Below are positions 5,265 through 9,416 of a stretch of 43,750 bases of DNA, piece by piece; the stretch's first letter is position 1, and each line of letters starts with the position of its first letter. The stretch comes from Candidatus Nanopelagicales bacterium. GTDB taxonomy: Bacteria; Actinomycetota; Actinomycetes; S36-B12. Both the position numbers and the translations under genes were made by a program. Under the pieces are notes generated by a model. It saw only the letters and a program-made list of their open reading frames with translations, searched no databases and was not told the DNA's origin. The stretch spans positions 1 to 43,750 of the forward strand of contig JANQZS010000023.1 in the NCBI GenBank assembly GCA_030728405.1, given 5' to 3'.

Positions 5265-5840
5265 GTGCTGCTATCTGATCGTGACCTGAAGGCCGAAATC
5301 ACTGCGGAGCGGGTGCGGGTTGAGCCCTACGACCCGGGCATGATTCAGCCCTCAAGCATCGACGTGCGTCTCGATAAATTCTTCCGCGTATTTGAAAACC
5401 ACCGCTATCCCCATATTGATCCGGCGGAGGAACAGACCGATCTAACCCGGCTCATTGAGGCCGGTGATGAGGCATTCATTTTGCATCCGGGCGAGTTCGT
5501 GCTCGGGTCCACCTACGAAGTGGTGAGCCTGCCCGATGACATTGCCGGTCGGTTGGAAGGTAAATCATCCCTGGGCAGGTTGGGCCTGCTCACCCATTCC
5601 ACCGCGGGGTTTATTGACCCTGGTTTCTCCGGTCATGTCACGTTGGAACTGTCCAATGTGGCCACGTTGCCCATCAAATTGTGGCCGGGTATGAAAATCG
5701 GTCAGCTGTGCCTCTTCCGATTAAGTTCACCGGCCGAGCACCCGTACGGTTCCAGCGTCTATGGGTCCCGCTACCAGGGCCAGCGCGGGCCCACCCCCAG
5801 CCGGTCTCACGCTAATTTTCACCGCACCCCCCTCGAGTAA
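5265..5840 (+). CDS. dcd: dCTP deaminase
   Basis: [12 protein letters not shown]...[16 protein letters not shown]...[34 protein letters not shown], hallmark Dcd sequence. Confidence 0.96.
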
Positions 5841-5844
5841 CCCC

Positions 5845-5919
5845 CCGCTCACCAAACATTTTGGGTTGCTATTGGTGGTCAAAATGGCCGAATAGCAACC
5901 CAAAATGTTTGATCAGCGG
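5845..5919. repeat. Long palindrome copy 1 (75 bp)
   Basis: CCGCTCACCAAACATTTTGGGTTGCTATT...AATAGCAACCCAAAATGTTTGATCAGCGG; 72/75 identical to 6981-7055; starts 5 bp after dcd stop and contains the stop codon of the 5913-6929 gene. Confidence 0.95.
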
Positions 5920-6929
5920 GGGAGGTGGGGTGGATCGCGACGTAGGGCGCTCTTGAGCCGCATGGCAACAACTTTCGGTGATTGCACAATTTCATCCCAA
6001 GTCCATCGCACCACCATCCAGCCTGCCTGTTCCAAGGCCTCCTGGCGTCGCTTTTCCGTGCGCAATGTGTCCGGTGAGTGATACTTCATCATTCCGTCAC
6101 ATTCACCAAGGACTCTCTGCTCGGGCCACCCTAGGTCTGCCCAGTAGTTCTCACCCGAAACACCCTGAACATGCATGCCACAAATCGGTCTCGGCACGCC
6201 CCATTGGTCTAGTGTGCCGCGCGACAGAGATTCAAGCGGTGACTCACTTGCAGGATCGGCGCATTGAATCACCTCCGCCGCCCGCCGAATACCCTGCCAT
6301 CCACGCTGATCTTTCAACGCAGCAATGAGTCTCGCCCGCACTCGCTCGCGGAGTTCCTCGTCGTGCACTATTTGTCGAATATTGATGTTTCCGGTGATTG
6401 AATCAGTGCACCAGCGTCGAAAAAGTGCGTCCATAGCGATGAGGCCTCGGGGGAGTGGAACTGTGCGGGCGACATCTACGGCGCTACGAATGGGGCGCGT
6501 AACTGGAATTCCTGCCACGATTTGAACGTCGAGTGGCGCCAATGGCGATCCATGAATATGGACATTTCCTTCGCGCCGGTAGCGACCTTGAGAAGCAATG
6601 AGGTGAATCTGATCGTCTTCTACATACGGCACCGGGAGTCCGTGGACAGTTAAGGCTGATTCATAACCGACAGCCGCGTGCGGAAAGGCTGCTTGGGCTG
6701 ATCTGATCGCCGTTAGAGAATTACTGACATCGGCAATGGATGTGGGATCGCTCATTGGTAAGACGAAGATCCCGGGCCGTGATCTGACAATTTGGCCGCT
6801 GATTACTGCCTGGCGCACGCGCCCACGGTTGATGCCGGCTAGTTGTGCCTGAGCTATTGTGAAGGGTCGCGTACCGAAAGCAGCAAGTGCTTCGGCGGCA
6901 GTAATGTGGCTCCGATCTGGAGTGGGCAT
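5913..6929 (-). CDS. Type IV TA AbiEi-like N-terminal domain + DUF559 (PD-(D/E)XK/Vsr-like) nuclease-like C-terminal domain
   Basis: N-term HTH-like ...FTIAQAQLAGINRGRVRQAVISGQIVRSRPGIFVLP; C-term ADLGWPEQRVLGECDGMMKYH...RQEALEQAGWMVVRWTWDEI resembles DUF559. Confidence 0.8.
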   Translation of the reverse strand: MPTPDRSHITAAEALAAFGTRPFTIAQAQLAGINRGRVRQAVISGQIVRSRPGIFVLPMSDPTSIADVSNSLTAIRSAQAAFPHAAVGYESALTVHGLPVPYVEDDQIHLIASQGRYRREGNVHIHGSPLAPLDVQIVAGIPVTRPIRSAVDVARTVPLPRGLIAMDALFRRWCTDSITGNINIRQIVHDEELRERVRARLIAALKDQRGWQGIRRAAEVIQCADPASESPLESLSRGTLDQWGVPRPICGMHVQGVSGENYWADLGWPEQRVLGECDGMMKYHSPDTLRTEKRRQEALEQAGWMVVRWTWDEIVQSPKVVAMRLKSALRRDPPHLPR

Positions 6930-6980
6930 AGGTCATGATGCGCCAAAGGCGACTTCAGCGGCCGACATCGTCCACACACA

Positions 6981-7055
6981 CCGCTCACCAAACATTTTGG
7001 GTTGCTATTAGTGGTCAAAATGGCCGAATAGCAACCCAAAATGTTTGGTGAGCGG
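6981..7055. repeat. Long palindrome copy 2 (75 bp)
   Basis: CCGCTCACCAAACATTTTGGGTTGCTATT-AGTGGTCAAAATGGCCG-AATAGCAACCCAAAATGTTTGGTGAGCGG; 29-bp perfect stem. Confidence 0.96.
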
Positions 7056-7076
7056 GGAGATGGGTGAGGGTTCAGG

Positions 7077-9305
7077 TTAAGGGAGGGCCTTAACTTTGAC
7101 GCTGTTAAGTAGGACCGAAGCGACGTCGACCACCTCAACCCCCACAGCGCCACCTTCCTGCTGGCGCATGGTGACGCCGTCGTTGATCATGACATTGCAG
7201 AACGGACACGCGACAGCAACCTTGGTGGCTCCGGTAGCGATGGCTTCGTCAGCGCGATTCACATTGACCCGCGTACCGATCTTTTCTTCCATCCACATGC
7301 GCGCACCACCGGCGCCGCAACAAAACGACTCGGTACCGCTGCGGGGCATCTCCACCAGATCAACACCGGGCACCGATGCCACGAGATCACGTGGTGGCAC
7401 ATAGACGTTGTTGTGACGGCCGAGATAGCACGGATCGTGGTAGGTAATTTTCTCGCCAATACCAGAATCAGGCGATGTGACCGGGGTGAGTCGACCCTCA
7501 CTGACCAGGGTGGCGAGCAACTGCGAATGGTGGACAACCTCGTAGTCGCCACCGATTTGCGGGTACTCCCGACCCAGCGTGTTCATGCAGTGGGGGCAGG
7601 TGACCACGATCTTCTTGGCCTTGATTTCATTAAGGACCTCAACGTTTTGCATGCCCTGCATCTGGAAGAGGAATTCGTTGCCGGCCCGACGTGCAGGGTC
7701 ACCGGTGCAGGTTTCACCCTCGCCGAGAACCATGAAGTTGACCCCGGCAATGGTGAGCAGTTCCGCCACTGCCTTGGTGGTGCGCTTGGCTCGATCTTCG
7801 AAAGCTCCGGCGCACCCGACCCAGAAGAGATACTCCACATCTTCGGGGATTTCATCTTCACCCTCGGTGCCAAAGACGCGGACATCAAAGTCAACCTCTT
7901 CGATCCAAGCGTTGCGACTGGATGCGTTCATGCCCCACGGATTGCCCTTGTTTTCAATGTTTTTGAACAGTCCATTGAGTTCGGCAGGGAAGTTAGTTTC
8001 GATCAAAACCTGATGGCGACGCATGTCGATGAAGTGATCGATGTGCTCGATATCGACCGGGCACTGGTAGACGCAAGCCCCACACGTGGTGCACGACCAC
8101 AGCGCATCCTCGTCGATTGCTGGCCCATCCTGGGCGCGGTGCCCGGAGGCATCGTAGCCATCGGTGTCCTTGTGGGCCATACCTTCTCGGGACCCAACGA
8201 GAGGCATTTCAACCTCGGCACGCAGTTCCGGTGAAAGTCCGGCAAGTACTGCTTCGTCAAACTCACCCATGGGCGGGTTAGCGCCACCATTAGCTTTTTG
8301 GGCAGCCAGGACATAGGGCGCCTTGGCAAAAGATGCCTCACGCAAGTTCATAATCATGAGCTTTGGACTCAATGGCTTTCCGGTATTCCAGGCGGGGCAC
8401 TGCGACTGGCATCGGCCACACTCGGTGCAGGTAGCAAAATCCAGGGTGTCTTTCCAGGTGAAGTCCTCGATGCGGCCCACACCGAAGGTGGCATCGTCAG
8501 GGGGATCTTCAAAGTCCAGCGGCTTGCCATCGAAGTACATGGGTAGCAGTGGCCCTAAACCATTGGGGCGTCTAGAGAATGCCACGTTGATAGGGGCGAC
8601 AAAAATATGCAGGTGCTTGCTGTGCAGCACCAGCAGTAGGAAGCCGAGGATGACAGCGATGTGCGAAAGAATGCCGAAGACTTCGATCCATTGAAGCGCG
8701 GTCTCACTCAGTGGAGACATCCACGAGGCGATGGTGTTGGACAGGAATGCGCCCGGGAAGTCACCGTAGAGCGCCAACTTTGCACCACGATAAATCTCCA
8801 GGGTCAACAGCACCAGGAAGATCATCAGCAAGACAACCCATGCCGGGCCGGTGTGCGAGCCGAAGAAGCGTGAATATCGACCCTTCTTTACGGGGTTGTT
8901 GGTCAATCGGATGAGGGCGAACAAAATGATGCCGACGAGAACCAAGATGACGAACAGGTCTTCTAGGAAAAGCACGATCGGCCAGGTGCCGATGACGGGG
9001 AACCAGAAGCCGGGGATAAATACTTCACCGAAAGCTTCAACGACGGTGATGCCGAGCACGATGAAGCCCCAGAAGGCAAAGACGTGTGCGATACCGGGCA
9101 CGAACCATTGCAGCAGTTTCTTCTGTCCGAGGACCTCAACAGCTTCGGCGCGGGCACGACGCGGCAGGTGACCGGTGCGGTCAACCGCGGGCTGGCCGGA
9201 GCGAATGAGGGCATTGAGGAAAAGTGCGCGGCGCACGGCAAAGGCCAGGGCGACGACGATGATCGCCGTACCGAGGCTGAGACGGAAGATATCCACAGCA
9301 TCCAT
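7077..9305 (-). CDS. Heterodisulfide reductase-type (Fe-S)-binding oxidoreductase with N-terminal membrane domain
   Basis: Two 4Fe-4S motifs (CTECGRCQSQCP, CTTCGACVYQCP) and CCG-type C-terminal motifs (TCPHCMNTLGREYP, CCGAGGARMW); N-term TM helices; start at MDAVDIFRLS. Confidence 0.9.
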   Translation of the reverse strand: MDAVDIFRLSLGTAIIVVALAFAVRRALFLNALIRSGQPAVDRTGHLPRRARAEAVEVLGQKKLLQWFVPGIAHVFAFWGFIVLGITVVEAFGEVFIPGFWFPVIGTWPIVLFLEDLFVILVLVGIILFALIRLTNNPVKKGRYSRFFGSHTGPAWVVLLMIFLVLLTLEIYRGAKLALYGDFPGAFLSNTIASWMSPLSETALQWIEVFGILSHIAVILGFLLLVLHSKHLHIFVAPINVAFSRRPNGLGPLLPMYFDGKPLDFEDPPDDATFGVGRIEDFTWKDTLDFATCTECGRCQSQCPAWNTGKPLSPKLMIMNLREASFAKAPYVLAAQKANGGANPPMGEFDEAVLAGLSPELRAEVEMPLVGSREGMAHKDTDGYDASGHRAQDGPAIDEDALWSCTTCGACVYQCPVDIEHIDHFIDMRRHQVLIETNFPAELNGLFKNIENKGNPWGMNASSRNAWIEEVDFDVRVFGTEGEDEIPEDVEYLFWVGCAGAFEDRAKRTTKAVAELLTIAGVNFMVLGEGETCTGDPARRAGNEFLFQMQGMQNVEVLNEIKAKKIVVTCPHCMNTLGREYPQIGGDYEVVHHSQLLATLVSEGRLTPVTSPDSGIGEKITYHDPCYLGRHNNVYVPPRDLVASVPGVDLVEMPRSGTESFCCGAGGARMWMEEKIGTRVNVNRADEAIATGATKVAVACPFCNVMINDGVTMRQQEGGAVGVEVVDVASVLLNSVKVKALP

Positions 9306-9311
9306 GGGGTC

Positions 9312-9317
9312 AGGGTA
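9312..9317 (-). promoter_or_regulatory. -10 element TACCCT, 6 nt before ATG 9305 (leaderless)
   Basis: Minus strand TACCCT-GACCCC-ATG. Confidence 0.5.
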
Positions 9318-9416
9318 ACGCTCGTTTGCCAAGACGGCTCCCCGCACCGTCATTTAACGTCCGATATTTAAGTCCTTGTCGCCTGTCAGGTAACTAATCC
9401 GCCCGATTGCATAAGA

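Follow-up and report, generated by a model that had tools for sequence, protein, structure and literature searches.

A predicted nuclease gene of the window, by which we mean the whole 43.75-kb stretch of DNA analysed, is flanked on both sides by palindromes of 75-82 nt, and the protein and its palindrome very probably form a matched pair, as judged by their association, by the privacy of each palindrome to its own gene and by the co-variation of the two. Recognition of the palindrome by the protein is strongly supported by this co-variation of sequences, and a single-gene, REP-like selfish system, whose nuclease would recognise its own palindrome and maintain or spread it, is the explanation that we favour, if with measured confidence. 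The locus comprises the following features.

5265-5840, plus strand: dcd, a neighbouring gene, the 3' end of which abuts palindrome copy A
5842-5922, no strand: palindrome copy A, with 32-bp arms (94% complementary) and a 17-nt loop
5843-5873, plus strand: left outer arm, pairing with 7027-7057 as a 31-bp perfect inverted repeat
5913-5915, minus strand: stop codon of the nuclease-like gene (TCA on the plus strand), inside the right arm of copy A
5913-6929, minus strand: nuclease-like gene, 338 aa, with an AbiEi-type module and a predicted nuclease domain
6981-7055, no strand: palindrome copy B, with 29-bp perfect arms and a 17-nt loop
7027-7057, minus strand: right outer arm, the exact reverse complement of 5843-5873
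7077-9353, minus strand: Fe-S oxidoreductase gene, the other neighbour, the 3' end of which faces copy B

The 75-nt stretches 5845-5919 and 6981-7055 of the two palindrome copies show exactly three differences, of which one falls within the loop and the others within the right arm of copy A; on rereading, both this count and the perfect complementarity of the 31-bp outer arms, as given in the first-pass annotation, proved exact. The 31-bp 'TIR' is a by-product, because any two copies of one palindrome give inverted outer arms. The nuclease gene runs at its 3' end into copy A, and its stop codon, by direct reading, is created by one of the two arm mismatches (at 5914); copy B is placed between the start of this gene and the Fe-S oxidoreductase gene, the 3' end of which it faces. 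At the threshold used, copies A and B were the sole long hairpins across the window, and in single-strand folding they reached -34.5 kcal/mol (z = -10.1) and -38.9 kcal/mol (z = -13.4), respectively, none of 200 dinucleotide shuffles being as good in either case. An intrinsic terminator was considered and rejected, since direct reading of the sequence revealed no T run beside copy A or B, the stems of 29-32 bp far exceed the required length, the copies match each other in sequence, and they co-vary with the gene (see below). Away from this locus, the window contains at 277-1122 three direct repeats of ~249 nt with a spacing of 297-300 nt, near which the alignment with a relative is broken.

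The Pfam search assigned the N-terminus of the window protein to AbiEi_4 and its C-terminus to DUF559/MTES_1575 (PF04480, PF18741), in agreement with the domain order proposed at first pass, which is supported by the structure model as well. The AbiEi-type DNA-binding module occupies approximately residues 1-200 and the Vsr/EDxHD-like nuclease domain approximately residues 231-330; in an alignment of 45 sequences, E233, D265, E276, D278 and R295 are invariant and K282 is nearly so. The top PDB match of the AlphaFold2 model of the 338-aa protein (mean pLDDT 92.9, pTM 0.87) was the AbiEi antitoxin of Streptococcus agalactiae (6y8q, E 2.5e-5), the match covering the N-terminal wHTH and the second domain. 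For the C-terminal domain the matches were I-Bth0305I, an EDxHD homing endonuclease, in its catalytic domain (3r3p, target-normalised TM 0.73) and Vsr (1cw0), both with weak E-values, 6y8q and 3r3p being the best interpretable structure matches. As modelled, the protein couples a fold known to bind inverted repeats to a nuclease fold of the homing/Vsr type, and its putative nuclease residues are conserved.

The arrangement recurs well beyond the window. Sixty-eight homologous loci, mostly 25-40% identical to the window protein, were taken from the order and subjected to a pair test, in which a hairpin no more than 450 bp from the gene had to recur in sequence on the other side with a score of at least 20, gene ends being set by a profile HMM. 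Matching palindromes on both sides were found at 51 of the 62 order loci with adequate flanks; the chance level was 10/2236 in comparisons of hairpins with the flanks of other loci, and among control genes 2/94 passed, both of them adjoining solo palindromes. The palindromes are typically ~60 bp long (median 62 nt, up to 91 nt), and the best match between the flanking pairs was direct in 31 cases and inverted in 20. Across the phylum, the gene is present in 122 of the 397 genomes sampled, and 20/29 loci carry matching flanking palindromes (21 had passed, and L279 was removed as an artefact of a duplicated gene). Members without a detectable palindrome pair make up about 18-30% of the family. 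In named organisms, namely Arthrobacter sp. StoSoilB13 (2 loci) and Tsukamurella tyrosinosolvens NCTC13231 (4 loci), all six loci have paired flanking repeats, clearly palindromic in four and weakly so at the Tsukamurella loci L261 and L262. The Tsukamurella NCTC13231 'plasmids' NZ_LR134451, NZ_LR134464 and NZ_LR134465 carry tatB, purB, rpmG and the like, and therefore look like chromosome pieces labelled as plasmids.

Each gene has a palindrome of its own. Among the 37 loci with pairs, none of the 31 same-genome gene pairs shares a palindrome (best score 14); both pairs above 50% protein identity share it (scores 41 and 35), and below 50% a single pair does (score 27 at 32% identity). Overall, protein similarity and palindrome similarity correlate weakly (Spearman 0.18), a consequence of palindrome turnover below ~50% protein identity. 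A conserved TIR of a transposon family was rejected, the arms being unrelated between members below ~50% protein identity. The orthologous cassettes L017 of genome G030 and L211 of its sister species G059 occupy the same site and encode proteins with 62% amino acid identity. Their palindrome arms, CGTCTGAGTTACCTGAATGGTCGCTAACT in G030 versus CGTCTTAGTTACCTAAATGGTCGATAACT in G059, differ by three changes, each of which is found in all four arms, and the solo copies in either genome carry their own species' version of the palindrome. Where copies within G030 vary, the same variant nearly always occurs in both arms (12 concordant cases and 1 discordant by manual count), and in the genome of the window's own species (G011, MAG HE327_NSB002) the changes that distinguish a diverged solo copy from the window copies are likewise common to both its arms. 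In the G030 family (L017, L161-L167, L223, L224 and other loci), the 29-bp arms are identical in the sampled copies and the 5-nt loop often varies between copies, as if remade or unconstrained; the arms are therefore actively constrained or homogenised and the loops freer. In G021 (L103, L168-L176), most copies share one asymmetric 3-bp arm mismatch, GAG versus ATC, which gives the palindrome a direction, and a few are perfect at that point.

Bacteria commonly contain dispersed palindromes, and those studied here also occur as solo copies away from the gene. About 40 such copies were found in G030 (40 forward and 41 reverse arm matches; control 0), several to ten or more in each of G048, G043 and G021 as lower bounds, and at least ~25 copies in the complete genome G251; the counts were obtained by searching and should mostly be read as minima, only some candidates having been scored in the last four genomes. 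In Arthrobacter StoSoilB13 the palindrome is present at 10 places, and no other plasmid record has it. In the window's species, the copy-number search proposed in the first-pass annotation returned, besides the pair at the gene, a single diverged solo copy (C2:118460, between convergent cytochrome genes) and one half copy at a contig end; this small family in the window's own species is counted against our best explanation as regards recent activity there. The same annotation had held that its reading would be refuted by many palindromes at 3' ends of unrelated genes and unlinked to AbiEi-DUF559 genes, together with a gene always present at this locus in relatives. This is not what was seen: the palindrome families tested co-occur with their cognate gene, despite copies near unrelated genes, and the gene is not constant at the locus (see below). 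Of 24 solo copies examined with crude gene calls, 22 are intergenic, 10 of these between convergent genes. No target duplication was seen at solo copies by inspection, insertions between strains were not observed, and intergenic flanks of different species were too diverged for alignment. In both G011 (L047:8457-8533) and G030 (L161:2055-2117), the same cytochrome b gene has a solo palindrome close to its 3' end, and the two palindromes are unrelated, a coincidence that suggests hot spots. A solo palindrome near one Arthrobacter gene (L263:5593-5662) resembles the pair around that strain's second gene (L303). Contig ends fall in palindromes in G030 (C3, C29, C33, C36, C54, C67, C74 and C92) and at L035:23-55; with many contigs starting or ending in this way, the repeats probably break assemblies.

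The dcd and Fe-S genes are an old convergent pair, at the junction of which the nuclease gene is accessory: among the relatives inspected, some have nothing between the two genes (33-217 bp), others have different genes there, and in G031 alone there is a homologue of 33% identity with a different palindrome. Distant homologues with different palindromes are thus seen at the same junction in two genera (L072:1848-3020 and window 5913-6929). Vertical inheritance at this junction was rejected, the sister species G022 and G059 having a different gene there. At two solo sites of G030 the palindrome is absent in G059; the site of cassette L073 is empty in G011 and G022, and in G059 it carries a distant homologue that is oriented the other way. 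The suggestion that the cassette moves as one unit found no backing, since a duplicated palindrome-gene-palindrome cassette was seen in none of the genomes. A near-identical protein is encoded in G011, a MAG placed in another genus, and recent transfer of the cassette between genera was considered and rejected: all aligned parts of the window contig share 98-99.5% identity with a contig of G011, which therefore points to binning or close relatedness and not to cassette movement. The window's bin has none of the other palindrome copies of G011, the tetranucleotide usage of the window lies nearer to G011 (0.968 versus 0.921, the latter from only 9.5 kb), and the window contig may be misbinned.

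From these patterns we infer that the protein binds and cleaves the palindrome and that break repair copies or inserts it, and suppose the following order of events. A pair of protomers would engage both palindrome arms, either as a single long symmetric site or as an extruded hairpin, and the nuclease would cut at the palindrome; the break could then be repaired on the template of another copy or of the other arm of the same hairpin. Such repair copying would preserve the identity of arms and copies and from time to time give rise to new intergenic copies, and the gene would persist by being embedded between two of its own targets. A two-arm site of ~60 bp would agree with the behaviour of the related proteins: AbiEi has two inverted repeats of 23 bp as its binding site (PMC7319586), I-Bth0305I forms a dimer on nearly 60 bp of target (PMC3943268), and both fit the median palindrome length of 62 nt. 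That nuclease action and copy repair account for the spread or uniformity of the palindromes seems to us reasonably probable. The G030 copies, identical in arms and differing in loops, count against a simple copy-and-paste of the whole palindrome, which would not predict them.

The main rival is classical homing, in which the gene itself would be mobile, the solo palindromes would be its targets or scars, and repair of a cut palindrome would insert the gene, leaving a palindrome on each side of it, the solo copies having spread otherwise. The kinship of the catalytic domain, which comes nearest to that of I-Bth0305I, an EDxHD homing endonuclease, agrees with homing, as do the patchiness of the gene at the dcd/Fe-S junction and the L073 site and the palindrome-gene-palindrome order, which is the expected product of insertion into a palindrome. 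Nevertheless, we hold it to be rather improbable, as a lone cognate palindrome was never seen at an empty site where a relative has the gene, the gene remains single-copy per family even with ~40 palindromes in the genome to serve as targets, and the number and homogeneity of solo copies would still need explaining. Unlikely, in our estimation, is an autoregulator with the palindromes as operators and bidirectional terminators and the nuclease fold kept for some other reason. The promoters of AbiEi and Rv2827c do contain inverted repeats to which these proteins themselves bind (PMC7319586), copy B sits a short way upstream of the gene, copy A lies at convergent 3' ends, and the intergenic and often convergent setting of the solo copies would suit such a role. 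An operator, however, leaves the downstream copy, the dozens of copies beside unrelated genes and the private sequence of each paralogue unexplained, and terminators require neither identity between copies nor co-variation with the gene.

Roles in chromosome organisation or repair have been proposed for some REP sequences, and host-adopted binding sites of this kind, devoid of mobility, would accord with the persistence of orthologous cassettes at one site in G030 and G059 and with the very strong constraint on arms whose loops vary; the patchy distribution of gene and copies, the rapid turnover of palindrome sequence and the presence of several independent gene-palindrome pairs per genome make this still less likely than autoregulation. 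Least credible, and barely so, is the anti-phage or restriction device suggested by the AbiEi/DUF559 names. PADLOC did return matches to AbiEi models and weak nuclease-domain matches to Hhe/PDC-S37, of which the AbiEi matches reflect a shared DNA-binding fold. No AbiEii nucleotidyltransferase toxin gene adjoins the window gene, its neighbours being dcd and the Fe-S oxidoreductase gene, no homologue was found in phage records, and the palindromes abound in the host's own genome in several relatives. The defence role put forward in the first-pass annotation thus gained neither a partner gene nor a phage match, and defence and plain regulation are both unlikely.

If the selfish system proposed above is real, its selfish repeats would be driven by a type of enzyme that is not known for such a role, and it would offer many natural protein-target pairs for studying nuclease-site coevolution, perhaps a further source of nucleases with long sites, and a testable account of how many unexplained intergenic palindromes and assembly breaks of actinobacteria arose. 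The family annotated as 'DUF559' or 'AbiEi antitoxin' carries a readable record of the DNA that each protein probably recognises. Whether it amounts to a separate, phylum-wide class of elements, in which an AbiEi module and a restriction/homing-type nuclease propagate their own lineage-private palindromes as a convergent, transposase-free counterpart of REP/RAYT, we consider an evenly balanced question. No record linking the DUF559 family to palindromes was found in the full-text literature search, nor any published description of such a system, subscription journals and preprints lying mostly outside the literature searched; in that literature, the sole dedicated enzymes tied to dispersed palindromes are the Y1 transposases.

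Several known systems share parts of this design. The C-terminal domain belongs to DUF559/REase_MTES_1575 (PF04480, PF18741). With the EDxHD/Vsr nucleases the protein shares, on the model, the C-terminal fold and the invariant acidic residues; unlike the EDxHD homing genes, the present gene is not within an intron, intein or conserved gene, and its putative target is a multicopy intergenic palindrome that flanks the gene. The AbiE type IV toxin-antitoxin systems have the AbiEi fold in common with it (6y8q), and AbiEi proteins bind inverted repeats (PMC7319586), whereas here there is no adjoining AbiEii partner, an extra nuclease domain is present, and the putative sites lie on both sides of the gene and genome-wide. 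From classical insertion sequences the system is distinguished by the lack of family-conserved TIRs and of target duplication seen at solo copies.

The closest resemblance is to the REP/RAYT systems (REPtrons), which are best described in gammaproteobacteria. In both, one gene is framed by two palindromes that are also dispersed, mostly in intergenic positions (at low copy in the window's species), and gene and palindrome coevolve in gene-specific families. The RAYT gene is delimited by two repeats, has dispersed copies and coevolves with them (PMC2817692), with compensatory changes and gene-specific palindrome families (PMC2817692, PMC3733652). The RAYT/REP-like arrangement suggested at first pass holds, accordingly, in its general features, i.e., paired gene-specific palindromes, solo copies and change in step with the gene, and does not hold as regards the protein, which is an AbiEi module with a Vsr/EDxHD nuclease and not a Y1 HUH tyrosine transposase. 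A RAYT encoded elsewhere in the genome was also considered and rejected: PF01797 (Y1_Tnp) had no match in 20 of 21 genomes, and the sole match, L302 (G251:C1:327649-327987), is in the complete genome mentioned above with its at least ~25 palindromes. Membership in the RAYT family fails on both grounds, the nature of the protein and the lack of PF01797 in 20/21 genomes. In further distinction from REP/RAYT, the present palindromes are longer (median and maximum as given above), their families show by inspection no constant GTAG-type tag, the flanking pairs are direct as well as inverted, and the system is found in Actinomycetota. It works like a REPtron and is not one.
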